29,202 bases of DNA, from NCBI GenBank assembly GCA_024278215.1, contig JAJRTR010000200.1:1-29202 (forward strand), in the 5' to 3' direction. A program made the position numbers and the translations under genes. Source of the stretch: a bacterium. Lineage in GTDB: Bacteria > UBP15 > UBA6099 > JAJRTR01. Below are positions 3,090 to 29,202 of the stretch, piece after piece (the first letter of the stretch is position 1; each line of letters begins with the position of its first letter). The notes under the pieces are model-generated. The model saw nothing but the letters and a program-made list of their open reading frames with translations. It made no database searches and was not told the origin of the DNA.

Positions 3090-4328
3090 ATGTTTATACG
3101 ATTTTTCATAGAACTCAGAAGTTTCGGCATACCGGTGACGGTGAAGGAATGGCTCACACTCGTGCAGGCTCTGGAGAAAGGTCTATGCGAAGCGAGCCTC
3201 GAAAGTTTCTACTATCTGGCGCGTGCGATTCTTATAAAAAACGAAACATTCTTCGACCGCTATGACCAGGCTTTTCAGCATTTCTTCAAAGGCGTGGAAG
3301 TGGACAGGGCGATGCTTGACGAAATACTCGAAGGGCTGAAGAAAGTCGACCCACTCGAACTCACAGAGGCTGAAAAACGGCTTCTGAAGGAACTTTCTCT
3401 GGATGAAGTTCTTGAAAACTTCCGCAAGCAATTCGAGGAAGGCCACTTCAAGGAACATGTCGGCGGAGACAAAGCCATCGGCACAGGCGGACGCTCCACA
3501 CAGGGCGCTTTCGGCTACAATCCCGCCGGGGTACGCATCGGACAGGGCGAAAGTCGGCATGGACGCGCTATCCAGATTGCCGAAAAAAGGAAGTTTCGCA
3601 ATTATTCCAGCAGTCACGTTCTCGACACACGCACTCTGCGTGTAGCTCTCACAAAACTTCGCACGCTGCTGCCCGAAGGCCCCGAAGATGTGCTTGATCT
3701 CGACAGTACAATAGATAAAACGTGCAAAAATGCCGGCGACCTCGAGCTTGTCTGGAAGCGCGACAGGCGCAACAGGGTGAAACTCGCGCTGTTTATGGAC
3801 GTCGGCGGCTCGATGGAACCCTACCAGATAGCTGTCAGCAAACTTTTCAGTGCGGCCAAGTCGCAGATTCGCGATCTGAAATATTTCTATTTTCACAATT
3901 GCATATATCAGGATATCTGGGACAATATCGAGATGGGCAAGCCGATACCCACCAAGGAGGCAATCAACTCTCTTTCCGACGATTACAAACTGATTTTTGT
4001 CGGCGATGCTTCTATGGCGCCCAGCGAATTGCTCGATGTCAACGGTTGTATCGAGTATTTCTATAACAACGATGTGCCGGGAATATGGTGGATGCACAAA
4101 TGGGCTGCGAAATTCAAATCAGCCGTCTGGCTCAACCCCATTCCGCCACATTCCTGGAATTACTCGATGAGCACGCGCATCATAAATAAGGTGTTTCCCA
4201 TGTATCCTTTGACGATTGACGGTCTTGGCGATGCGATCAAAAAACTTCTCAAACCTTCGCGGCCGATTATTACAAATGCCGAAATCCAGTCCATAGTCTC
4301 CGCGCGGCGAAGACCATATTATTATTGA
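3090..4328 (+). CDS. VWA domain protein, CoxE-like (molybdenum enzyme maturation)
   Basis: The 412-aa product matches the CoxE-like family along its length: N-terminal helical part (FYYLARAILIKNE), a middle GTGGRSTQGAFGYNPAGVRIG segment at ~131-150, and a C-terminal von Willebrand A domain with the MIDAS motif DVGGS (237-241), FYFHN (~266-270) and IFVGDASMAPSELLD. CoxE works with a MoxR-type AAA ATPase (CoxD) in inserting or maturing the metal centre of CO dehydrogenase-type molybdenum hydroxylases. Here the MoxR partner is absent. The gene instead leads mobA, mobB and moeA on the same strand, which supports a role in molybdenum enzyme assembly. The start is the ATG at 3090, with GAGGT about 13 nt upstream. 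The target enzyme is not in the window. Confidence 0.88.
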   Translation: MFIRFFIELRSFGIPVTVKEWLTLVQALEKGLCEASLESFYYLARAILIKNETFFDRYDQAFQHFFKGVEVDRAMLDEILEGLKKVDPLELTEAEKRLLKELSLDEVLENFRKQFEEGHFKEHVGGDKAIGTGGRSTQGAFGYNPAGVRIGQGESRHGRAIQIAEKRKFRNYSSSHVLDTRTLRVALTKLRTLLPEGPEDVLDLDSTIDKTCKNAGDLELVWKRDRRNRVKLALFMDVGGSMEPYQIAVSKLFSAAKSQIRDLKYFYFHNCIYQDIWDNIEMGKPIPTKEAINSLSDDYKLIFVGDASMAPSELLDVNGCIEYFYNNDVPGIWWMHKWAAKFKSAVWLNPIPPHSWNYSMSTRIINKVFPMYPLTIDGLGDAIKKLLKPSRPIITNAEIQSIVSARRRPYYY

Positions 4329-4428
4329 ATCCGGCACTCCGCACAGCTTCTCTTTCACAATTGCTTTTTTTCACCCTATAATAAATCGTATCTTTTGCAA
4401 ACACGTTGCCGTGGATAATGGAATAATT

Positions 4429-5064
4429 ATGACCAGCGCCGACATGATACCATCACATAAAGCTGTCGCAGTGATACTTGCAGGCGGGCTCAGCTCGCGT
4501 ATGGGCGAGAACAAGGCTGAAATCAAATTTCGAGGAACATCCATGCTGGAACGGCTCGAACAGGAACTTTCCGCCTACTTTGAAAAAGTCATGATCTCGA
4601 CGAGGGCAGGCACGAGTAGTCAACTGGTTGCCACCGGCACAATCGGAGAGATCGTCGAAGACGTTCTGCCCGGACGCGGACCGCTGGGTGGTCTTTTTTC
4701 GGTTATGAAATATGTCGAGAGCGAACTGTATTTCGCTGCCGCATGTGACATGCCTTTTCCCGACGGACAACTTGCGGCCGGAATGATCCGGGCTGCATCC
4801 GATACCTTCGATGTGGTAATACCCCGCATGAACAATGGCAATCTTCATCCGCTGTTCGCTGTTTACAGAAGAACCTGTCTGCCCTTCATCGACGCGCAGT
4901 TGAAAACCCGAAACAACAAGATTATCGACTTTTTCGACCGTGTTAATGTCCTCTATTATGATGAAGTCCTGTTGAGAGATGCCGATCCGCAACTGCGTTG
5001 CCTTGAAAATGTGAATACACGCGAAGACCTGGAGAGAATTATCAGGATGGAAGATGAAAACTGA
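4429..5064 (+). CDS. mobA: Molybdenum cofactor guanylyltransferase
   Basis: MobA transfers GMP from GTP to molybdopterin-Mo to make the guanine dinucleotide cofactor. The product is ~211 aa, close to the family's usual size. The nucleotide-binding signature LAGGLSSRMG is at 17-26, followed by a conserved Lys (ENKAEIKF), GRGPLGGL and AACDMPF (metal-binding Asp), then HPLFAVYRR. The ATG at 4429 is preferred; a GTG at 4411 (+6 aa) and an ATG at 4444 are possible, and none has a strong Shine-Dalgarno site. It lies 100 nt after the CoxE-like gene and ~97 nt before mobB, with a repeat remnant in the second gap. A cytidylyltransferase relative (MocA) shares the fold, but the mobB neighbour favours MobA. 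Confidence 0.9.
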   Translation: MTSADMIPSHKAVAVILAGGLSSRMGENKAEIKFRGTSMLERLEQELSAYFEKVMISTRAGTSSQLVATGTIGEIVEDVLPGRGPLGGLFSVMKYVESELYFAAACDMPFPDGQLAAGMIRAASDTFDVVIPRMNNGNLHPLFAVYRRTCLPFIDAQLKTRNNKIIDFFDRVNVLYYDEVLLRDADPQLRCLENVNTREDLERIIRMEDEN

Positions 5065-5082: not shown

Positions 5083-5121
5083 GAGCCGGTCGCAGCAGAA
5101 TCAGAATGTTGCAATCGGCTC
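5083..5121 (+). repeat. 39-nt remnant of the 178-nt GAGCC/GGCTC element
   Basis: This piece starts with GAGCC and ends with GCAATCGGCTC. Its body (GTCGCAGCAGAATCAGAAT) matches the right-hand end of the copies at 21713 and 29010. It looks like an internally deleted copy keeping both tips. It lies 18 nt after the mobA stop. Confidence 0.7.
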
Positions 5122-5160
5122 AGGTGCATAATAAAATTCTGTCATCGTGGAGCAACTCGC

Positions 5161-6940: not shown

Positions 6941-7016
6941 ACAACCCTGCGGCAGAATTATACGTTTTGTCATTTATCCGTACCGGCGGCAGAGGATAAA
7001 AAAACTTTTCATCATG

Positions 7017-7032
7017 ATTTTACAATTGGCTC
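7017..7032 (+). repeat. Possible short tip of the 178-nt element
   Basis: ATTTTACAATTGGCTC matches the right tip of the 178-nt element with one mismatch. It lies ~75 nt after the moeA stop. At 16 nt it may be chance. The gap 6941-7136 shows no gene. Confidence 0.35.
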
Positions 7033-12670: not shown

Positions 12671-13184
12671 ATGCGGTTTGAGCACGGCACACAGAGTTTC
12701 AATGTTCCCGCAGTCATGATTGTCGCCCGTGTGCTTGACCCGCGCTCGAAACTCACGACTGCTCAGGGTCTCGATACGGAAACCATGTGCAGCTCTCCTA
12801 GCGAGTTGTTGGATGTCGGTGAGTGTGATGAAGACGAATGGCACATGCGCCGGGCGCTCGCGCCCATCCTGTTCGACGACCGCACACCCGACGCCCCGGA
12901 CGAACGCGCATCAGCAGTCGCGCCTGTGCAACTATCGTCCGCCGCCGCCCGCAAAGCCCGCACAAAACGAACAGACGACAGCTATACAGTACAGAGCTTA
13001 AGGCAAGTGCTTACAAATCTCGGTACCATCACCATCCGATCTCGTACAAGCGAAAGTGGCCGGAGCCGAAACATTTTACAAAATAGCCCGTCCCACCAGC
13101 CGGCAGCAACGAGCACTGGACCTGCTCGGCATACGACTTCGTGTAATCGGACGTGCACATAAGAAAATACAAATATCCCGATAA
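12671..13184 (+). pseudogene. Decayed IS1634-family transposase with core deleted
   Basis: Two separated parts of an IS1634-type transposase are joined in frame. MIVARVLDPRSKLTTAQGL through LLDVGECDEDE comes from the N-terminal third. It is followed at about 12833-12839 directly by WHMRRALAPILFDD, which belongs near the C-terminus, so several hundred residues including the DDE catalytic core are missing. The tail (TKRTDDSYTVQSLRQVLTNLGTITI) then breaks twice: near 13042 the frame shifts to YKRKWPEPKHFTK, and near 13085 to ARPTSRQQRALDLLGIRLR, ending at TAA 13182-13184. The first ~100 residues and the left boundary are unclear. It cannot encode active transposase. Confidence 0.82.
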
Positions 13185-15253: not shown

Positions 15254-15385
15254 ATATAGTTGCGTTGTCGGCACAAAATTGTCCTCAACGCACTCCGCGA
15301 GTACGTCTGCGATGTTTTCGCGCCTTCGACTTGCTCTGAACAATTTCGCTTGCCATCGCTACGAACATAATTTTGCAATTGACTA
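15254..15385 (-). repeat. 178-nt element, copy A (truncated)
   Basis: In minus orientation this matches the left ~130 nt of the copies at 21713 and 29010: tip CAATTGCAAAATTATGTTCG, AGCGAAATTGTTCAGAGCAAG, the GACGTACTC...GAG core and CCGACAACGCAACTAT. The other end is lost. Its intact tip lies near 15385. Confidence 0.8.
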
Positions 15386-15430
15386 TATTGTTGCTAAAAT
15401 AATGTGACTCATCGCAAAAAGAGCAATAGC

Positions 15431-15455
15431 CCGGATTTCTCACAAAGAAATCCGG
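15431..15455. repeat. Perfect 10-bp hairpin
   Basis: CCGGATTTCT-cacaa-AGAAATCCGG. It lacks a T-run, so it is not a clear terminator. It lies between the element copy A and the 23-nt palindrome. Confidence 0.55.
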
Positions 15456-15581
15456 AAAACCGTGAGAACCCCCATTCTACTGCGTTGCGGCGGCGATTCG
15501 GGATCGGTCACATACCGGCAGTATGCTCCCTCACCACTCACTTGCCGCGCCTTGTATTATGGGCATTCTTCCGGTTTTTCA

Positions 15582-15604
15582 CCCGCATTTGTGAAATATG
15601 CGGG
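15582..15604. repeat. 23-nt palindrome, copy 2
   Basis: CCCGC-ATTTGTGAAATAT-GCGGG, related to the copies at 8816 and 24838. The similarity to the 24838 copy extends upstream (CCGGTTTT). It ends 12 nt before the Shine-Dalgarno site of the nitronate monooxygenase gene, so it lies in that leader. Confidence 0.75.
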
Positions 15605-15631
15605 ATAGAACATAATAAGGAGCAAGCAAAT

Positions 15632-21584: not shown

Positions 21585-21712
21585 TGCCATAAACTCCATT
21601 CACAAACGAATCAGGAAATATAGAAATACAACTGCGCAGACTGCAAAATCATGTTCGACTGCTGTTATTCTATACATCTTCGTAAAAAATGGAAGTTATA
21701 TACCATACAGAT

Positions 21713-21890
21713 GAGCCAACTGCAAAATCATGTTCGTGGCGAAGTCGAGCGAAATTGTTCGGAACAAGGCGGAGGTATAAAATCCTCGCAGGCGTACTTG
21801 CAGAGTATGTCGAGAACAATTTCGCACCGACAACGCAACTATGGACAATAGCAGCCAACCGCAGCAGAATCATAATTTTGTAATTGGCTC
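21713..21890 (+). repeat. 178-nt element, copy B (full length)
   Basis: The ends are GAGCCAACTGCAAAATCATG and ATAATTTTGTAATTGGCTC, terminal inverted repeats of ~18 nt. Inside are an AAGTCGAGCGAAATTGTTC block, a GGCGTACTTGCAGAGTATGTC hairpin core and CGACAACGCAACTATGGAC. It is exactly as long as the copy at 29010 (178 nt) and clearly alike over its length. It sits 12 nt from the stop of the gene at 21903. Confidence 0.85.
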
Positions 21891-21902
21891 AGATATTACA
21901 AC

Positions 21903-22613
21903 TCACTTGTGGCGAGACAAAGGGCTATGTGTGCCGATACCGGACCGGTGCCCCGAGACCTGCCGGGGCACATAGGGGACGGTCTCAGTCAGCGTCGCCC
22001 TTTTCGCAGGGAGCCCGTATTCAAAGACGCCTTTTTTATCATTTTCGACGGCATCCCCGCGCAGTGGCCATGAGCCTTCGGACAAATATCCCTTTTCGAC
22101 AAGGTCCTGCAAGTTGTTTATGTTTCCATTCTGAGATTGTTGATTCCCTGTTCCAACATAACTGCCGTTCTCGGGATGATAAAACAAACCGATCGCCACG
22201 ATCACGACGATTGACAGCACTATTATGAGCATTCCGCAGATTGACCAGAAACGCTGAGTTTCCTTAAACTGTTTCACGCTGTCGAACGTCCTCGCCTTCC
22301 ATGCCAGCTCGTTGCCCTTGAACCCGAGATAGAGCGAAACGGCAAAACCGATAATTACAGTAAACGGGATCAGACATGTAGCGAGCAGGACGGCAAAAAA
22401 CAGCCACAGCCTGTGAGCCGCCGTCCAGAATATGCTGAGCGAAAACGCGCCGAAATTAAAACCTTTAATCTCATCGGGCACGGGGCGGCGGTTTGCAGGT
22501 GCCTCATCCGGGCACACCGCGCCTCTGACGGCCCTGCTGCCAGGCCGACCCCCACAATTTTCGCAGCAGGAGGCTGCGTCGTTGTTGTTATGTCCGCAAT
22601 TCGGACATTCCAT
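21903..22613 (-). CDS. Zinc-ribbon membrane protein
   Basis: The 236-aa product begins MECPNCGHNN with a zinc ribbon (Cys3, Cys6, Cys17, Cys20), then a linker and IKGFNFGAFSLSIFWTAAHRLWLFF, typical of small membrane proteins whose ribbon precedes two or three membrane helices (~50-100 and ~125-150). The role is unknown. Its Shine-Dalgarno site (GGAAGGTGA) overlaps the stop codon of the GH84 gene and the gap is 3 nt, so translation is coupled. The last ~25 residues (VPRQVSGHRSG...SPLSRHK) are read through a GC-rich hairpin (21948-21971) and look like intergenic sequence, so the original C-terminus may have been shorter. Confidence 0.78.
   Translation of the reverse strand: MECPNCGHNNNDAASCCENCGGRPGSRAVRGAVCPDEAPANRRPVPDEIKGFNFGAFSLSIFWTAAHRLWLFFAVLLATCLIPFTVIIGFAVSLYLGFKGNELAWKARTFDSVKQFKETQRFWSICGMLIIVLSIVVIVAIGLFYHPENGSYVGTGNQQSQNGNINNLQDLVEKGYLSEGSWPLRGDAVENDKKGVFEYGLPAKRATLTETVPYVPRQVSGHRSGIGTHSPLSRHK
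21948..21971. repeat. GC-rich hairpin within the 3' end of the zinc-ribbon gene
   Basis: GTGCCCCG and CGGGGCAC form a perfect 8-bp stem with an 8-nt loop. An outer stem CTATGTG (21925-21931) / CACATAG (21969-21975) is an alternative. There is no T-run. Confidence 0.5.
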
Positions 22614-22616
22614 TTT

Positions 22617-23912
22617 TCACCTTCCGATATACGACATAACAGGAACCACAGCCGCGGGTATCGTATTGACTTTCCTTCCGCAAAGGGCCGCTCTCGCCTT
22701 TATCACTGCTGCCTTCAGCGCCGGCCCATCCTCTGCCACCGCCGCTTCGACAGCGCGCAATGCGATTTTACAATACTTTGCAGTCTCCTTCGCAAGCGGT
22801 CGGACATCGTTGTAGAAAAGTCGCAGCGCGTCGGCTTCTTTTAACAGCGCCGGTAACTCAATGAATTGTTGCAACACATTTTTCAATTTGTGCAATTCGC
22901 CGTTCCCTGCGGCGTCAATTGCGGATACAGTCGGCGAAGGCGGCTCTCCGAAGAAAAACGACGCCGGGTGGAGTGCGCAGAATTCGAGCAGCAGATCACG
23001 GTCGCCGGCGGAAAGTTTCTGTCCCCAGGGCGCAACAGTCGCTTGAGCGAGAGCCGCGCGCGGATCGTAATCGTGCGGCGAACGCAGCCACTGCGCGATC
23101 GTCAACAGCGGTATGGCGGAAGCCGCCGCTTCGTTCATCGGGTTGGCGTAGTAGCCCGCCAGCATCGAAGGCACGTCCGGTTCGCGTCCTGCGATGGGGC
23201 CGAGATTAAGTTTGCAGCGGTTGTAGTCGTTCACAGGATAGTTGTCCCACAGCAACGGTTTTCTTTTTATTATGCCGGCAATGGATTTCGTGTCTTCGGT
23301 CGTAATTCGCGGTGAAACCACCAGCGGCCCGGTCCAGAATATCTCGATCGAGCGGGAAATATCTTTGCCGATAGTTTCAAGATATGGAGTCGGCTTTACG
23401 CCAATGTATTCTGTAGGGCAAAAAAGCAGGCGCGCGCCGGGCACTCTTTCCAAAAGCACGTCGGCAAGCCTGTTCACGAGATCGGCCTGTGCCGAGGCGA
23501 GAGAGCTCCATTTATTCCTGTCGGACACATGCGAAAGTACTGGTGGAATGTCGTCGAGAAACAGCGCGAAACTTCGTACTCCATAATCAGAGATGGAAAC
23601 AAACTTGTCGGCGAGCGCATCGAAATCTTTGCGCTCTGAATACCTGATCGACAGGCCGGGGCTGAGCGCCCAGCAGAAGTTGATGTTTTTTTTGCCGCAT
23701 TTGTTTATGGCGGCGACGAGATGTTTCCGGGCGACGGCAGTGTAGGGTGTCCGCCACCTCTTGCGATGAAACGGATCGGCCTTCGGTGCGTAGATATAGG
23801 AATTGAAACCGGCGTAAGACATAAAGTCAATAAAACGCAATCGTGCGGCGGCGCTCCACGGTTTCCCATAAAACCCCTCGACAACACCCCGGTCATAATC
23901 TGTTTGTTCCAT
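22617..23912 (-). CDS. GH84 beta-N-acetylglucosaminidase (O-GlcNAcase-like)
   Basis: The 431-aa product matches the GH84 catalytic barrel: RGVVEGFYGKPW at the N-terminus, YIYAPKADPFHRKRWR (Lys44 substrate contact), FALFLDDIPP with the catalytic Asp120-Asp121 pair, FCPTEYIG, IFWTGPLVVSPRI and LLWDNYPVND. A helical domain follows from ~300. GH84 enzymes remove terminal beta-linked GlcNAc by substrate-assisted catalysis. There is no signal peptide or binding module, so it should work in the cytoplasm, unlike secreted GH84 toxins. The ATG at 23912 (MEQTDYDRG) follows a GGA site; the frame runs on to 24116, overlapping the radical SAM gene, and is not used. It is the middle gene of a three-gene operon. 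Confidence 0.93.
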   Translation of the reverse strand: MEQTDYDRGVVEGFYGKPWSAAARLRFIDFMSYAGFNSYIYAPKADPFHRKRWRTPYTAVARKHLVAAINKCGKKNINFCWALSPGLSIRYSERKDFDALADKFVSISDYGVRSFALFLDDIPPVLSHVSDRNKWSSLASAQADLVNRLADVLLERVPGARLLFCPTEYIGVKPTPYLETIGKDISRSIEIFWTGPLVVSPRITTEDTKSIAGIIKRKPLLWDNYPVNDYNRCKLNLGPIAGREPDVPSMLAGYYANPMNEAAASAIPLLTIAQWLRSPHDYDPRAALAQATVAPWGQKLSAGDRDLLLEFCALHPASFFFGEPPSPTVSAIDAAGNGELHKLKNVLQQFIELPALLKEADALRLFYNDVRPLAKETAKYCKIALRAVEAAVAEDGPALKAAVIKARAALCGRKVNTIPAAVVPVMSYIGR

Positions 23913-23943
23913 CTGTCCGCGCTTCCCGTCCTGAAGCTTATAC

Positions 23944-24816
23944 TCACAACGCTCTGAGAAATTCCGGGCGCAGGAAACGCCCGGGATCGGCAAGAGCAGC
24001 GTCGATAGTGCCGAGCAGCTTTTCTCTATCCTGCGCCAGCACCCCCTTGAGAGGCAGGTAGTTCGACGCGTGATTTGTCCTGAAAATGCAGCCGTCGGTA
24101 CGAAGCTGATCGACAAGTTGCCTGACTTCCCGCAACAGCTCGAGTTTTGTCAGAAATCGAAAGTCCGGCCCCATCTGTTCCGCGAAATAATCTTCGAGCG
24201 GACCGAGCATCAGTGAGAGCGCGCTGACATAGGTCGGATTCATTTCCGAACATACCGATGCGGTGTCTGCAATGTGCTGCTCGGACATTTTTGCGCCGCC
24301 GAGCCCGAGCAACACGGTGACAGAAAGAGGGAATCCCGCCTCGAGCGCCTTGCCGCCAGCCTCGATCATTTCCGCCCGAGTCGTGCCTTTGTCCACTTTA
24401 CGCAACACGTCGTCGTTGCCCGACTCCAGGCCGAAATAAAGAATATCGAGACCTTCCTCACGAAGCAGGCGAAGTTCGCCCATCGTTTTTACGAGCAGAT
24501 TTTTTGGGTTTGCGTAGGAAGTTACGCGCTCGAGTTTGGGGAACTTGGCGTAGAGCAGCCTGAGGATTTTGCTCAGAGTCGATGTTTTTATAACAAGCGC
24601 GTCGCCGTCCGCGAGGAATATGCGTTTTGTGTGCGGCATGGTTCCCGCGCACTCGAGGACATCCTTCTTGAAATCGTCGAACCTGCGTATGCGAAACTTC
24701 TTCATCTTGTACATACCGCAGAAAAGGCATGTGTTGTTCGAGCAGCCATAAGTGGCTTGCAGTATCAGGGAATCCGCTTCACTTGGCGGCCTGAACAGTG
24801 GCTGATCATATTCCAT
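23944..24816 (-). CDS. Radical SAM protein with Cx4CxxC cluster motif
   Basis: The 290-aa product has the cluster motif TYGCSNNTCLFCGMY (Cys25, Cys30, Cys33), which is Cx4CxxC and not the usual Cx3CxxC. KKFRIRRFDDFKKDV, RIFLADGDALVIKT and DILYFGLESGNDDVLRKVDKG follow, as in small HemN-like/COG1032 radical SAM proteins of unknown role. The ATG at 24816 has GGGAG ~8 nt upstream. The open frame continues to 25068, but that AT-rich extension crosses the palindrome at 24838 and is rejected. The gene starts a run with GH84 (31-nt gap) and the zinc-ribbon gene (3-nt gap). Confidence 0.88.
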   Translation of the reverse strand: MEYDQPLFRPPSEADSLILQATYGCSNNTCLFCGMYKMKKFRIRRFDDFKKDVLECAGTMPHTKRIFLADGDALVIKTSTLSKILRLLYAKFPKLERVTSYANPKNLLVKTMGELRLLREEGLDILYFGLESGNDDVLRKVDKGTTRAEMIEAGGKALEAGFPLSVTVLLGLGGAKMSEQHIADTASVCSEMNPTYVSALSLMLGPLEDYFAEQMGPDFRFLTKLELLREVRQLVDQLRTDGCIFRTNHASNYLPLKGVLAQDREKLLGTIDAALADPGRFLRPEFLRAL

Positions 24817-24837
24817 ATTCTTTCTCCCGGTTTTGAA

Positions 24838-24860
24838 CCCGTATTGGTGAAATATTCGGG
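24838..24860. repeat. 23-nt palindrome, copy 3
   Basis: CCCGT-ATTGGTGAAATAT-TCGGG, related to copies at 8816 and 15582. It lies 21 nt upstream of the radical SAM start, in the leader or promoter. Confidence 0.72.
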
Positions 24861-25273
24861 TTAATATCAAAAATAATTTATGTGCCAATTCCGACAATAC
24901 AACATGTAATACATTATACATCATAAAATAAATATCACTGATTGGAAACAAAATGTTAAACGAAAATGTTATTGTTTGACAGAAAAAGAATAATTTTAAG
25001 TATGATCTTGACTGATATGGCAAAATTATCTTATTATAGGGAAGATCAAATAAGTGGCTGCCGGGCAAATAGATGCAAAAATTAGTAATAATTATTCATA
25101 ATTTGTTTGAGGCAAAGAAGGCAATTGCGTATCCGGCTGTTCAATAGATATTTCTCGACACAATGGGTTTACAAAGAATAAATATTTCTATTGAATATGC
25201 AAAGGAAAGAAGAAGAGATTATTATAGACAGTGATGGCGGCAAACTGTTCATAAATGCGATTTGCAAACAAGC

Positions 25274-25302
25274 TTGAATGAAAGACATAAGGCAAATAGA
25301 AT
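25274..25302 (+). promoter_or_regulatory. Promoter of tRNA-Arg
   Basis: TTGAAT (25274-25279) and TAGAAT (25297-25302) are 17 nt apart. The expected start is ~15 nt before the tRNA. Confidence 0.55.
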
Positions 25303-25323
25303 AGTTAGAGTTAAAAGAGAATT

Positions 25324-25397
25324 GCGCCCGTAGCTCAGCTGGATAGAGCGTTAGATTCCGGATCTAAAGGCCAGGCGTTCGAATCGCCTCGGGCGTA
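25324..25397 (+). tRNA. tRNA-Arg (anticodon CCG)
   Basis: A full cloverleaf can be drawn: acceptor GCGCCCG / CGGGCGT (first pair G-U), D arm GCTC..GAGC, anticodon stem TTAGA/TCTAA with loop TTCCGGA (anticodon CCG, reading CGG), and T arm AGGCG-TTCGAAT-CGCCT. The discriminator is A, and CCA is not encoded. Confidence 0.95.
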
Positions 25398-25462
25398 TAC
25401 TAAATGCACATTGCATCAAGTATTAAAATGTGCAAATATTAAGAATTGAGGGTGATAGAAAC

Positions 25463-25747
25463 ATGAGTGAAGGAGCATTTTTAAAGAAACAACGTCTGAA
25501 AAAAGGAATGACAATCCGAGACGTCGTAGCCATGACAGGGGAAGAGATCGACAAAACTACGATCTCAAGGATTGAGCGCGATGAAAGGAAAATCTCTTTA
25601 AAAGCAGCGTTCTATTTCTCGAAGATATATGAACTGCCTATGGAAGAGATTGCCAAAAAGGCACTTGGCCCGAAGGCTAAGATTAAGAAAATCAAGATCG
25701 TCAAGAAAAAACGCGGTCGAAAAAAGGGCTCGGGAAACAAGAAATAG
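25463..25747 (+). CDS. Small XRE-type helix-turn-helix protein with basic tail
   Basis: The 94-aa product has an XRE-like HTH at ~5-65 (FLKKQRLKKGMTIRDVVAMTG, DKTTISRIERDERKISLKAAF, FSKIYELPMEEIAKKAL), then a Lys/Arg tail from ~70 with KKKRGRKKGSG, similar to an AT-hook. It should bind DNA, probably as a small regulator. The ATG at 25463 has GAGGGTG ~8 nt upstream; a GTG at 25430 in the same frame lacks one. It begins 65 nt after the tRNA on the same strand, so cotranscription is possible. The stop is TAG, and a terminator hairpin follows at 25804. Confidence 0.85.
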   Translation: MSEGAFLKKQRLKKGMTIRDVVAMTGEEIDKTTISRIERDERKISLKAAFYFSKIYELPMEEIAKKALGPKAKIKKIKIVKKKRGRKKGSGNKK

Positions 25748-25803
25748 CAGAGTAGAATTTACTTTGTGGCAGACTTTTTCCGGTTTAACAACAACAGTAT
25801 ATA

Positions 25804-25839
25804 AATGTGAGGCAGTATTTTTTAGTGCTGCCTCACATT
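25804..25839. terminator. Terminator-like hairpin after the HTH gene
   Basis: A perfect 12-bp stem, AATGTGAGGCAG / CTGCCTCACATT, with a 12-nt loop. The T-run lies in the loop and not after the stem, so the mechanism is uncertain. It separates the convergent HTH and transporter genes. Confidence 0.55.
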
Positions 25840-25971
25840 ATATTATCATGGGCTTAAGCGTAAGGCTGCTATATACGTATTCAGAGTCCGCGAAGAAATA
25901 AGCTGGAAGTGTTGAAACGACATAGTATTATTTTGAAGAGAATGTTTTTACTGATGGGTATACCGGACCGG

Positions 25972-27465
25972 CTACTGTATCAAAACAGGCATGCCCATGG
26001 CGGGCCAGATGAATCTTATAAATATTGCAAGCACAAGCAACAGGATTATGCTGGCCGGAATACCGGCAGCGAAGAATTCGCCGGATGAAAACTGTTTGCT
26101 GCCGTAAGCGATGGCATTTGGGGCGGCTCCGACAAGCAACATAAACGGCATACCGGCAACGGCAAGCGAGGCGAACAGAATCACCTCGGGCGCTACGCCT
26201 ATATATGGCGCTATAACCAGCGCTACAGGCAGTGAGATTGCTATCGCCGCGACGTTCATAATTATGTTCGTCAATATAAGTACCAGGAAAGCTATACTCA
26301 TCACGAAAACGAACCAGGGGGCGTTTCGGAACAGGACCATCCAATTGACCGCCAGCCATTCGGCGGCACCGGTCTGCCACAAACAGAATCCGATGCTCAT
26401 GGCACCACCGAAAAGCAGGATGATATTCCACGGAACGTCTTCAAGGTCCTCAATATCCAGAATCTTGAACGCAAAGAACATAACAGTGACGACAAGTATG
26501 ACGGCACTCTTATGAAAAGGTTTAAGTTCCGGTATGAAAGACCTCGCACCGAGAAAAGCTATACACAAAAAAACAAGAACTATGGAAATTATTTCCTGAG
26601 TAGTGATCGGACCGAGTTTATGATGTAGTTCCATCGCTCGTTTTCGCAGCCCCGGTATGGTCTTTTTTTCCGGTTTGTACACGATAATAAAATATACCCA
26701 TAGAATAATAGTCATCAGCACGCCCAGCGGCAGCATGAAGTAGGTGAGCCTGAAGAATGTGATTTCATAGCCGGTGATGTCCCTGAAAAAGCCGATGGCG
26801 ACCGCCCCGCGTGCCGCTCCCAGAAGGGTGATTATGCTGCCCGCGCCGGCGACGTAAGCCATTCCCATGAAAAGCCCCTTGCCGAACTTCGTTTCCTTGT
26901 CTCCTTCGCCATATAATGAATAAATCGCCATAAGCAATGGGAAGATCGTCGCCGCCACCGCGGTATGTGCCATCACCAGCGTCATAGCGGACGTCATGAG
27001 AAAACAACCAAGATATATCATACTCGTTCTTTCTCCCACGAGAGAAAGCATCTTGTATGCCATTCGTTTTGTGAGCCCCGTCTTGGTGAAAACGAGTCCG
27101 ATCACGATGGAACCGAAAATGAACCAGACCGAAGGATCGAGGAAATCCGTCAGGGCGGTCCGTGTGTTGCGTATGAGAAATATCGACTGGAATACTCCGA
27201 TAGCTATGCTGGTAACACCTATGGGCACCACTTCCGTGACCCACCATGTGACCGCAAGCAGGAACAGCGCCAACGCGGCTTTTCCCTCTCGCGTCAGGGC
27301 AAAATGTTTTCCCATGGGGTCCACGGCGTCAGGAAGCGGCGGCGCGAGATACAACATCGCGAAAAGCCCCACTCCCAGCAACAGCAGGATGGTTCTTTTC
27401 ATATCCAACTTCGCCGGTTTCTTGTATATCCGGCGACTCTTTCCATTTTGTTTCTTATATGCCAT
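25972..27465 (-). CDS. DASS/SLC13-family sodium-coupled anion transporter
   Basis: The 497-aa membrane protein has about 11-12 hydrophobic segments. VTWWVTEVVPIGVTSIAIGVFQ and FLDPSVWFIFGSIVIGLVF, then VPWNIILLFGGAMSIGFCLWQTGAAEWLA and LVGAAPNAIAYG, are family hallmarks. These carriers import dicarboxylates, citrate or sulfate with sodium. The two SNT substrate motifs are changed: the first region reads MAHTAVAATIFP (AHT) and the second NIIMNVAAIAISLP (MNV), so the usual substrate is in doubt. The ATG at 27465 has GAAGGGAT ~9 nt upstream; the frame is open to 27492. The N-terminus is basic (KKQNGKSRRIYKKP). Confidence 0.9.
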   Translation of the reverse strand: MAYKKQNGKSRRIYKKPAKLDMKRTILLLLGVGLFAMLYLAPPLPDAVDPMGKHFALTREGKAALALFLLAVTWWVTEVVPIGVTSIAIGVFQSIFLIRNTRTALTDFLDPSVWFIFGSIVIGLVFTKTGLTKRMAYKMLSLVGERTSMIYLGCFLMTSAMTLVMAHTAVAATIFPLLMAIYSLYGEGDKETKFGKGLFMGMAYVAGAGSIITLLGAARGAVAIGFFRDITGYEITFFRLTYFMLPLGVLMTIILWVYFIIVYKPEKKTIPGLRKRAMELHHKLGPITTQEIISIVLVFLCIAFLGARSFIPELKPFHKSAVILVVTVMFFAFKILDIEDLEDVPWNIILLFGGAMSIGFCLWQTGAAEWLAVNWMVLFRNAPWFVFVMSIAFLVLILTNIIMNVAAIAISLPVALVIAPYIGVAPEVILFASLAVAGMPFMLLVGAAPNAIAYGSKQFSSGEFFAAGIPASIILLLVLAIFIRFIWPAMGMPVLIQ

Positions 27466-27596
27466 GTAAGAAATATCCCTTCGGTATTCCATAACACATT
27501 TTCGCGAAATCGCCCTGAAAGGCTTATATATGATGTCAGTTATCGTCTATTGCTGATCGACAATTGTCGACATGAACTTATTGCACATTACCCATT

Positions 27597-27763
27597 GAGG
27601 CAATTGCAAAATTCTGACTCTGCTGCGATTGTCCATAGCTGCGTTGTCGGCATAAAATCGTCCTCGACGTACTCTACAAGTACGTCTGCAATGATTTTAC
27701 ACCTACGCCTTGCACTGAACAATTTCGCTCGACCTCGCTACGAACATAATTTGCAATTGGCTC
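27597..27763 (-). repeat. 178-nt element, copy C (167 nt)
   Basis: In minus orientation it runs from GAGCCAATTGCAAATTATG to AATTTTGCAATTGCCTC and matches copies B and D, with ~10 nt missing near one end (next to CAGCAG). The tip at 27763 is 3 nt from the CBS gene stop codon (27767-27769). Confidence 0.85.
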
Positions 27764-27766
27764 CCA

Positions 27767-28297
27767 TTATTCATTCAGAAGATGGTATATCCTGTCGAAA
27801 ACATCTACAGAACGAACGACGCCCACGACAGTTTCTCCGTCAAGCACGGGAATAAGCGCCACATTGTTTTCCACCATCTCATACACGATTTTGCCGAGAT
27901 GATCCTCGTGAGTGACTGTTCCTTTTACAGGCTTCAGTATTTCATCTACCGTTCGTTGCGTCTTCGTCTTTATCTCTTCTATGAGGTGGTCATAGTTAAG
28001 CTCGGTAAGGTTGGGATCAATCCTTACATCGAACAGCATCTTTCTGTACCCCATAGATTTTGACGAGAGAAAATCGGGCTCAAGCCCTCTGAGTATGTCC
28101 CGCCTTCTCACTATTCCCATCAAATCGTCGTTCTCATTAAAAACCAGCAGCACACGTGGTAGTGATGTCTTGCCGTTGATCTGAAGATGTGTCCGGTCGA
28201 AAACCTCCATAGCATCCAGAAGCGTACAATTCGTATTTATATACGGATAATCCTTAAGCGGAATCATAATGTCATTCGCTCTTTCAGCATTCTGCAT
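27767..28297 (-). CDS. CBS-domain pair protein
   Basis: The 176-aa product is almost entirely a Bateman module: CBS1 at ~10-75 (DIMIPLKDYPYINTNCTLLDAMEVF, LVFNENDDLMGIVRRRDILRGL) and CBS2 at ~113-175 (DEILKPVKGTVTHEDHLGKIV, ALIPVLDGETVVGVVRSVDVF). CBS pairs bind adenine nucleotides and regulate a partner, which is not evident here. A strong Shine-Dalgarno site (GAGGAGG) precedes the ATG at 28297. It lies upstream of the DASS transporter on the same strand, ~300 nt apart with an element copy between. Confidence 0.9.
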   Translation of the reverse strand: MQNAERANDIMIPLKDYPYINTNCTLLDAMEVFDRTHLQINGKTSLPRVLLVFNENDDLMGIVRRRDILRGLEPDFLSSKSMGYRKMLFDVRIDPNLTELNYDHLIEEIKTKTQRTVDEILKPVKGTVTHEDHLGKIVYEMVENNVALIPVLDGETVVGVVRSVDVFDRIYHLLNE

Positions 28298-28435
28298 GTT
28301 CTGCCTCCTCTCAAGGTAGAATCAGGCTTATAGCGCAATTGTATTTGCAATTTGCACGGGCAGAAAATATCAGCTCCCTCAATCGCAACAACATAAAAGC
28401 ATTTTCAATGGATTCAGTACCGGCCAGAGGAACTT

Positions 28436-28482
28436 CCTGTTGTCCTCGCTATAGACGACAGGATAATTCTGCAATTGGCTCC
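28436..28482. repeat. Hairpin joined to a tip of the 178-nt element
   Basis: CCTGTTGTC and GACGACAGG form an imperfect stem (28436-28462) followed by ATAATTCTGCAATTGGCTCC (28463-28482), which matches the GGCTC tip of the 178-nt element. The rest of the element is absent. Confidence 0.55.
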
Positions 28483-28552
28483 ACCGGATAAGACTTTCCG
28501 GGAATAGCTTTCCTGTTCATGTTTTTTCATAAACGGATTTTCCGACTGCTTC

Positions 28553-28581
28553 TTGACACCCGATGTATCCAACAGTATAAT
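28553..28581 (+). promoter_or_regulatory. Consensus sigma-70 promoter of the DUF6788 gene
   Basis: TTGACA (28553-28558) and TATAAT (28576-28581) are exactly 17 nt apart. Transcription would begin near 28588, giving a ~75-nt leader. Confidence 0.8.
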
Positions 28582-28655
28582 TAACTGTAGGCAAAAGTCA
28601 AGTGCAAAAAATAATTCAGGACACACAGTATATTTACCTGTAGGGAGATGTCAAG
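28574..28655 (+). repeat. Direct repeat pair in promoter and leader of the DUF6788 gene
   Basis: A 29-nt sequence at 28574-28602 recurs at 28627-28655 with 24 of 29 identities (shared parts AGTATA, CTGTAGG and GTCAAG). The first copy covers the -10 box and start point, and the second covers the ribosome-binding region. Confidence 0.65.
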
Positions 28656-28661
28656 ATATAA

Positions 28662-29006
28662 ATGGTGAAATACAAGACGCACACCAGAGAAGAACTGGAG
28701 CAATTTGAACAAGAGTATGAGCATTTGAAGCAAAGAATATTGGCCCTCGGGCATGTTGTGCAGGGTTCGTTGACTGAAAGAATGATGGTATGCGGAAAGC
28801 CCGAATGCCGATGTCATGCGGACCCGGAATATCGACATGGTCCTTATATACAATTTAGCTGGAAGGAAGACGGAAAAACAATATCGGTTTATCTCACGGA
28901 GGAGCAGGCTGAATTATGCAGGAAGTGGATCGCAAACAATCATGAACTCGAAGAAATCATTCATCAGATGAGAAATATATCGAGAAATATCGTACGCTTT
29001 AAATGA
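28662..29006 (+). CDS. DUF6788 protein, likely transposon passenger
   Basis: The 114-aa product contains LGHVVQGSLTERMMVCGKPE followed by CRCHADPEYRHGPYIQFSW and YLTEEQAELCRKWIANNHEL. This CGKPxCRCH...RHGPY pattern is that of DUF6788, a short family I know mainly next to transposase genes of the ISNCY type. Three Cys and several His residues may bind zinc. The ATG at 28662 follows GGGAG by ~15 nt. A copy of the 178-nt element starts 3 nt after the TGA, so any transposase partner would lie beyond the window. Confidence 0.8.
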   Translation: MVKYKTHTREELEQFEQEYEHLKQRILALGHVVQGSLTERMMVCGKPECRCHADPEYRHGPYIQFSWKEDGKTISVYLTEEQAELCRKWIANNHELEEIIHQMRNISRNIVRFK

Positions 29007-29009
29007 TAA

Positions 29010-29187
29010 GAGCCAATTGTAAAATTATGTTCGTAGCGAGGTCGAGCGGAATTGTTCAGAGCAAGGCGGTGGTGTAAAATCCTCGCAGGCGTACTTGTAA
29101 AGTACGTCGAGGACGATTTCGCGCCGACAACGCAGCTATGGACAATAGCAGCCGACCGCAGCAGAATTAGAATTTTGCAATTGGCTC
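29010..29187 (+). repeat. 178-nt element, copy D (full length)
   Basis: It runs from GAGCCAATTGTAAAATTATG to AGAATTTTGCAATTGGCTC, near-perfect terminal inverted repeats of ~18 nt. The core ATCCTCGCAGGCGTACTT / AAGTACGTCGAGGACGAT can fold into a long hairpin. It begins 3 nt after the DUF6788 stop codon. Confidence 0.88.
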
Positions 29188-29202
29188 AATAAGAGTGGAA
29201 GA

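Follow-up and report, generated by a model that had tools for sequence, protein, structure and literature searches.

A transposase-less element with IS1182-like ends that probably carries an old hairpin core present under other ends in many phyla

ERIC, also named IRU or RU-1, is an imperfect intergenic palindrome of ~127 bp that occurs in Enterobacteriaceae and Vibrionaceae (PMC10969869). It carries no transposase and forms a long RNA hairpin, and its movement and origin have been an open question since its discovery around 1990. Correia/NEMIS, from Neisseria, comprises abundant intergenic palindromic miniature inverted-repeat transposable elements (MITEs) that are transcribed with genes, and transcripts of both Correia and ERIC undergo processing by RNase E and RNase III (PMC10969869, PMC2229807). 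Bacterial MITEs are usually regarded as unrelated, genome-specific debris. As of 2007, RUP was the only bacterial repeat for which a similarity of the ends to an insertion sequence (IS) was known (PMC2229807), and in parts of a catalogue of stem-loop families from 40 genomes ERIC is not linked to families of other phyla (PMC2267715). Our literature search, which left most subscription journals outside its scope, found no description of a core common to ERIC and other MITEs. Here, we analyzed a 29,202-nt stretch of bacterial DNA (the window), which is an entire contig (C178) of a fragmented, 95%-complete genome bin of 4.55 Mb in 207 contigs. An earlier note, made from the letters of the window alone, had pointed to four long copies (A to D) of a ~178-nt element in it and had read the element as either a MITE or a mobile 3′ mRNA end. 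We consider it probable that the element is an IS1182-type MITE carrying an old hairpin core, which is present with other ends in many phyla and probably in ERIC.

The element is built like ERIC but is not a member of that family, as its ends, target duplication, and host differ: it has GAGCC ends and 4-bp duplications, whereas ERIC has other ends with TA termini (PMC2229807) and lives in other hosts. The host phylum is represented by seven genomes in the collection searched and is therefore distinct from the large enterobacterial phylum. Correia/NEMIS also differs from the element in its ends, which have TA termini (PMC2229807), while Chunjie, a MITE of Geobacter uraniireducens compared here by description only, is similar in being 178 to 235 bp long, mostly intergenic, and present in dozens of copies (PMC10969869).

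To describe the family, its left tip was searched as a pattern with up to 3 mismatches, which occurred at 295 places in the genome, while the reversed-pattern control occurred at none. The genome-wide search with copy D that the earlier note had proposed returned at least 40 copies at 94 to 97% identity among the matches listed, and at 178 nt per copy the family makes up roughly 1% of the genome. Length, duplication, and placement counts are based on 71 unique full-length copies extracted with their flanks, which had a median identity to the consensus of 96%. Most of them measured 178 nt (46/71) or 179 nt (14/71), and the element ends in a perfect 17-bp terminal inverted repeat, GAGCCAATTGCAAAATT. 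An exact direct repeat abutted the tips in 51 of the 71 copies, with a length of 4 bp in 45 (mean of 1.5 after shuffling of the flanks) and of 5 bp in 6 (mean of 0.24). It is these target duplications, adjoining inverted tips, that identify the element as a MITE. As the earlier note had stated, the element has no coding capacity, and no transposase-encoding open reading frame (ORF) was found in its 178 nt. The entire element folds as one long hairpin (−79.5 kcal/mol, z = −9.3 versus dinucleotide shuffles; −86.3 kcal/mol for the consensus). With its inverted tips, target duplications, hundreds of copies, and absent coding capacity, the element has every feature of a MITE that could be looked for, and it is a non-autonomous DNA transposon. 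In Rfam, the window yielded only a tRNA at the gathering threshold and copy D had no match at E ≤ 1; blastn against plasmid and phage collections gave zero matches.

The earlier note had also proposed that movement would need a transposase in trans. By analogy, the ends and the duplication length point to the IS1182 family (ISUnCu17 and relatives) as the mobilizer, with ends GAGCCTCTTGCAAAA compared with GAGCCAATTGCAAAA in the element and a 4-bp target duplication in both. Two complete plasmid-borne elements annotated as IS1182 illustrate this: one of the ISUnCu17 type (ends GAGCCTCTTGCAAAA, duplication TCCT/TCCT) and one on the Comamonas plasmid pBHB (ends GAGGCTCTTGCAGAA, duplication TGGT/TGGT). 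Unlike the MITE, IS1182 elements are autonomous, about 1.4 kb long, and lack the hairpin core. One deltaproteobacterial genome contains a related hairpin element (L108) and also an incomplete transposase gene bounded by GAGCCTTTTGCAAAA and TTTTGCAAGAGGCTC; the best NCBIfam match of this partial protein is IS1182, below the curated cut-off. An IS1182-family transposase acting in trans would cut at GAGCC...GGCTC and insert the element into AT-rich intergenic DNA. The proposal holds by this analogy of tips and duplication length, but the assembly itself contains only remnants of such an enzyme: the IS1182 family model detected two C-terminal remnants (contigs C188 and C62), and none of the three transposases with a DDE_Tnp_1 domain (PF01609) has GAGCC ends. 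Intact IS1182 copies with other ends are present in the relatives G001 and G004; one of them (L266, in G001) has ends GATTCCGGCGCAAAAA and a 7-bp duplication. The same ends flank a hairpin element of roughly 100 nt on contig C62 (L267:1787-1888), which adjoins the IS1182 remnant there. Homologues of the L244 transposase were found neither in the host phylum nor in viral contigs. IS1380 was also considered as the mobilizer of the GAGCC family and rejected, since only a decayed fragment occurs in the genome and its ends are different.

The interior of the element extends well beyond this genome. In G005, a relative from the same order, elements are 73 to 75% identical in the interior and carry other ends, GAGGCTCTAACAAAA. 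A pattern consisting of the central hairpin plus AAGGCG, for which we estimate about one chance match, was found in at least 79 stretches of the collection, from Desulfuromonadales, other Deltaproteobacteria, Gammaproteobacteria, Acidobacteria, Selenomonadales, Phascolarctobacterium, Nitrospirae, Omnitrophota, and others. A downstream motif, CAACGCnGC, is conserved although it lies outside the search pattern. The resulting core of ~97 nt is recognizable by its covarying stems together with two internal-loop motifs, CAAGGCG and CAACGC. In viral contigs, the first pattern had zero matches, and the single match of a second pattern (L087) lacks the downstream motif and was taken as chance. Two covariance models were built, R1 from 38 sequences excluding the element's own genome and R2 from 128 matches excluding ERIC. 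R1 recovered copies C (61.7 bits) and D (61.5 bits) of the window with E about 1e-12 and had matches in all six related genomes, including 103 in G005. It also revealed a second family in the window (15468-15565, minus strand, 41.2 bits, E = 8.6e-8), with sister copies elsewhere in the genome that have YTAR-like duplications. Together with the GAGCC family, this places the same core under two types of ends in one genome. The members and relics of both families in the window, and the gene that adjoins copy D, are as follows.

29010-29187, plus strand: copy D, a full-length 178-nt GAGCC-family MITE with ends GAGCCAATTGTAAAATT / AATTTTGCAATTGGCTC; core by covariance model at 29051-29147 (61.5 bits)
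27597-27763, minus strand: copy C, 167 nt, with the 5-bp duplication CCATT at 27592-27596 and 27764-27768; core at 27627-27723 (61.7 bits)
21713-21890, plus strand: copy B, 178 nt, with the 4-bp duplication AGAT at 21709-21712 and 21891-21894; core at 21754-21850 (41.8 bits)
about 15254-15385, minus strand: copy A, decayed, 3′ tip lost; 15.6 bits with R1 and 28.9 bits with R2
15430-15604, minus strand: second-family element with IS1380-type ends CCCGCATATTTCAC ... GAGAAATCCGGG and the duplication CTAT (ATAG on the plus strand at 15426-15429 and 15605-15608)
5084-5122, plus strand: relic, 3′ tip of the GAGCC family
7013-7032, minus strand: relic, a lone GAGCC tip
21626-21657, plus strand: probable relic resembling the left end, 5′ of copy B (repeat family D4, 84% to copy B)
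28662-29006, plus strand: DUF6788 gene (114 aa; PF20586, E = 2.6e-33), directly 5′ of copy D and outside the element

The four long copies lie where the earlier note had placed them and share ends, body, and a central GTACTT/AGTAC hairpin; B and D, both 178 nt long as reported, are 88% identical. The duplications of copies B (AGAT) and C (CCATT), the second related family at 15430-15604, and the relics at 5084-5122, 7013-7032, and 21626-21657 had escaped that first reading. The second-family element lies 45 nt from the decayed copy A and is overlapped by an ORF listed from 15404, so the start of that gene is probably further downstream.

The ends found around the core fall into several types with their own duplications. 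Elements with GATG/GACG ends mostly show 6-bp duplications (12/20), and those ending in CCYGCATNTCTCAC show 4-bp YTAR duplications (9/14). In a Bryobacterales genome, two intact IS1380 elements (L218 and L224) share their ends with the hairpin elements of that genome, with duplications CTAA/CTAG. The IS1380 family thus equals the second hairpin family in its ends, CCYGCATTTCTCACC, and in the YTAR duplication; unlike it, IS1380 is autonomous and lacks the core, and its ends differ from those of the GAGCC family. Scanning the examined IS elements with the core model found nothing inside them, and the core is not derived from these elements. The ~97-nt core would instead be one old module carried by several transposase families, with IS1380-type ends in the window and with IS1182-like GATG/GACG ends in Deltaproteobacteria. 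Tentatively, we propose that a single strand-specific hairpin module, common to the MITEs of many phyla and to ERIC, has become joined to the ends of IS1182, of IS1380, and of the mobilizer of ERIC, and that it is needed for spread and not by the host.

An alternative that we regard as unlikely, though the most probable of those considered, is that one ancestral MITE had its ends drift along with related DDE transposases, without any swapping of modules. IS1182 and IS1380 are both DDE families. The GAGCC, GAGGCTC, GATG, and GACG ends are all IS1182-like, and the L266 ends GATTCCGGCGCAAAAA, with their 7-bp duplication, are near those of the GATGCTTTCGCAAAAA families, which mostly have 6-bp duplications. 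Drift accounts poorly, however, for the presence in one genome of IS1380-type ends (YTAR-like duplications) and IS1182-type ends (any 4 bp) on the same core. Two variants of the core itself were also seen. In L140 (Oscillospiraceae SIG629, 4287-4608), three core hairpins lie in tandem ~114 nt apart, forming an array. In the second-family copies L169:13125-13242, L171:10977-11094, and L174:14475-14596, a longer hairpin, GCCGGCCAGCC..., stands in place of the apical one, which suggests that the tip of the core is exchangeable.

To compare the core with ERIC, we examined six ERIC loci from E. coli, Klebsiella, Enterobacter, Citrobacter, and Kosakonia. R1 matched all six at the correct position and strand and over the full model length (E of 5e-6 to 0.14), and the ERIC-free R2 scored them at 14.7 to 33.5 bits (E of 4.5e-8 to 0.006); the highest background score across 49 kb of E. 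coli K-12 was 11.7 bits. The match comprises CAAGGCG ... CAACGC and a GCTTAC/GTAAG apical stem followed by GA. Citrobacter, Enterobacter, and Kosakonia gave clear matches and the other three weak ones. These results make a common origin of ERIC and the core likely, the homology being deduced from the models. The low R1 scores of three of the six copies (10.5 to 14.4 bits) would also fit unrelated hairpins that converged on similar internal loops; given that all six loci were matched at the right place and strand by the full model, reaching 33.5 bits with a model free of ERIC sequences, and that the background did not exceed 11.7 bits, we find convergence rather improbable.

We then asked whether the fold of the core had been conserved. 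On a MAFFT alignment of the 38 sequences that was not fitted to structure, the stems covaried with a score of 0.385 versus 0.116 after shuffling. Pairing cells amounted to 90.6% versus 75.3% and double-change cells to 123 versus 45.4, and none of 500 shuffles reached any of the three values. When partners were slid, pairing dropped to 22 to 40%. Most of the signal came from the outer helix and from helices 2 and 4, and the single free position of the central hairpin was U in 37 of 38 sequences, forming a G-U pair. In addition, the plus strand folded more stably in 60/61 families, and neutralizing the central hairpin left this true of 53/61; these counts are not independent because the families are related. 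Within the genome, by contrast, substitutions private to one copy kept the pair in 24% of cases versus 26% expected, and paired sites varied no less than unpaired ones. An apparent excess of pair keeping (46% versus 33%), which would have indicated selection on the fold after insertion, disappeared with private variants alone and thus reflects the founders of subfamilies. As stems covary between families while private variants are neutral, the fold has been kept over long times but not in the host after insertion. Selection therefore acts on the moving lineage, and individual copies decay neutrally. We infer that the fold aids the spread of the element: it would be kept along the line of source copies that are active, while single copies decay in the host. 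Candidate routes are recognition of the strand-specific hairpin, either by the transposase or by some host factor, and an RNA made from the element.

These observations also bear on the simpler view of a plain MITE, i.e., a degenerate internal-deletion derivative of an IS1182-type element, the interior of which arose as a side product of palindromic growth and shares no origin with other families. Tips and duplications alone would explain its mobility, and the neutral decay of copies agrees with it. Still, the interior is absent from the examined IS elements, it was recovered at E of 1e-12 by a model built from other phyla, a result that largely refutes this view, the stems covary between families, and the IS1380-tipped family of the window has the same interior; we hold it to be improbable.

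Several points weigh against the reading that we favor. The 71 copies were selected partly by high score, which biases them toward young copies, and the gene calls are approximate, made with a home-made codon-usage caller. The GAGCC tips agree with those of ISUnCu17 at 13 of 15 positions, short of all, and an intact IS1182 transposase is absent from the 95%-complete assembly, IS copies being easily lost from metagenome bins. The collection pattern fixes most of the central hairpin, the invariance of which is therefore by construction; independent evidence comes only from the remaining stems, from CAACGC, and from the one free position with its conserved G-U pair. Lastly, the weakness of half of the ERIC matches would also fit convergence. 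If the core is indeed common across phyla, bacterial MITEs would form one superfamily, ERIC would gain relatives with nameable transposases (IS1182 and IS1380), and compensatory mutation could test what the hairpin does in transposition.

Concerning placement, only 1 of the 71 copies overlapped a called gene, though intergenic DNA makes up only about 17% of the sampled sequence. In the window, as the earlier note had observed, copy C lies 3 nt from the TAA at 27767-27769 of the gene at 27767-28297, copy D starts 3 nt past the TGA of the DUF6788 gene (29004-29006), and copy B is 12 nt from the TGA at 21903-21905. Genome-wide, this proximity is a real but modest enrichment: the 71 copies have 13 facing stop codons at a distance of up to 15 nt versus 4.0 expected under uniform intergenic insertion (~3-fold), while most copies are not at stops. 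Facing starts within 15 nt numbered 2 versus 4.1 expected, and the stop excess fades at greater distance. The best explanation of this excess is that insertions into genes, promoters, or ribosome sites have been lost; insertions in genes or just 5′ of starts would be removed by selection, leaving a modest excess beside stops. Among 50 copies within 300 nt of a facing stop, 26 were in sense orientation to the gene that ends there, so a terminator with a fixed orientation to the upstream gene was rejected. The mobile 3′ mRNA end of the earlier note fared no better: a host-beneficial stabilizer, terminator, or RNase target retained beside stops for its effect on transcripts would fit the stop enrichment, the highly stable RNA fold, the RNase E and RNase III processing of ERIC and Correia transcripts, and the effect that ERIC reportedly has on transcripts in Yersinia, but it is very improbable in view of the random orientation, the lack of preference for pair-preserving changes among private variants, paired sites that vary no less than unpaired ones, and the 21 of 66 copies with two called neighbors that sit between divergent genes.

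We also considered whether the DUF6788 gene next to copy D belongs to an autonomous element. The sole homologue of this gene in the genome (contig C40) is divergent and no transposase follows, and we took the adjacency as coincidence. A GAGCC copy lies 188 nt downstream of this other DUF6788 gene, and both genes may be remnants of mobile elements. A frame at 12671-13162 resembles, by eye, the C-terminal part of an IS1634-like transposase fragment on contig C48 (L078).

The family also leaves its mark on the assembly. Contigs C25, C60, C63, C81, C93, C173, and C174 start or end within a copy, several of them ~141 nt in, and contigs ending so often inside copies indicate that the MITE itself breaks up the assembly. 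If the core is common across phyla, a single covariance model could annotate many unannotated repeats that break metagenome assemblies. The contig of the window likewise terminates at a copy, copy D. The right flank of D, aataagagtggaaga (29188-29202, the last 15 bases before the contig end), is identical to that of another copy on contig C25 (L036), and an exact target duplication is absent at both junctions; the junction at the right end of D is therefore likely an assembly artifact at the repeat.

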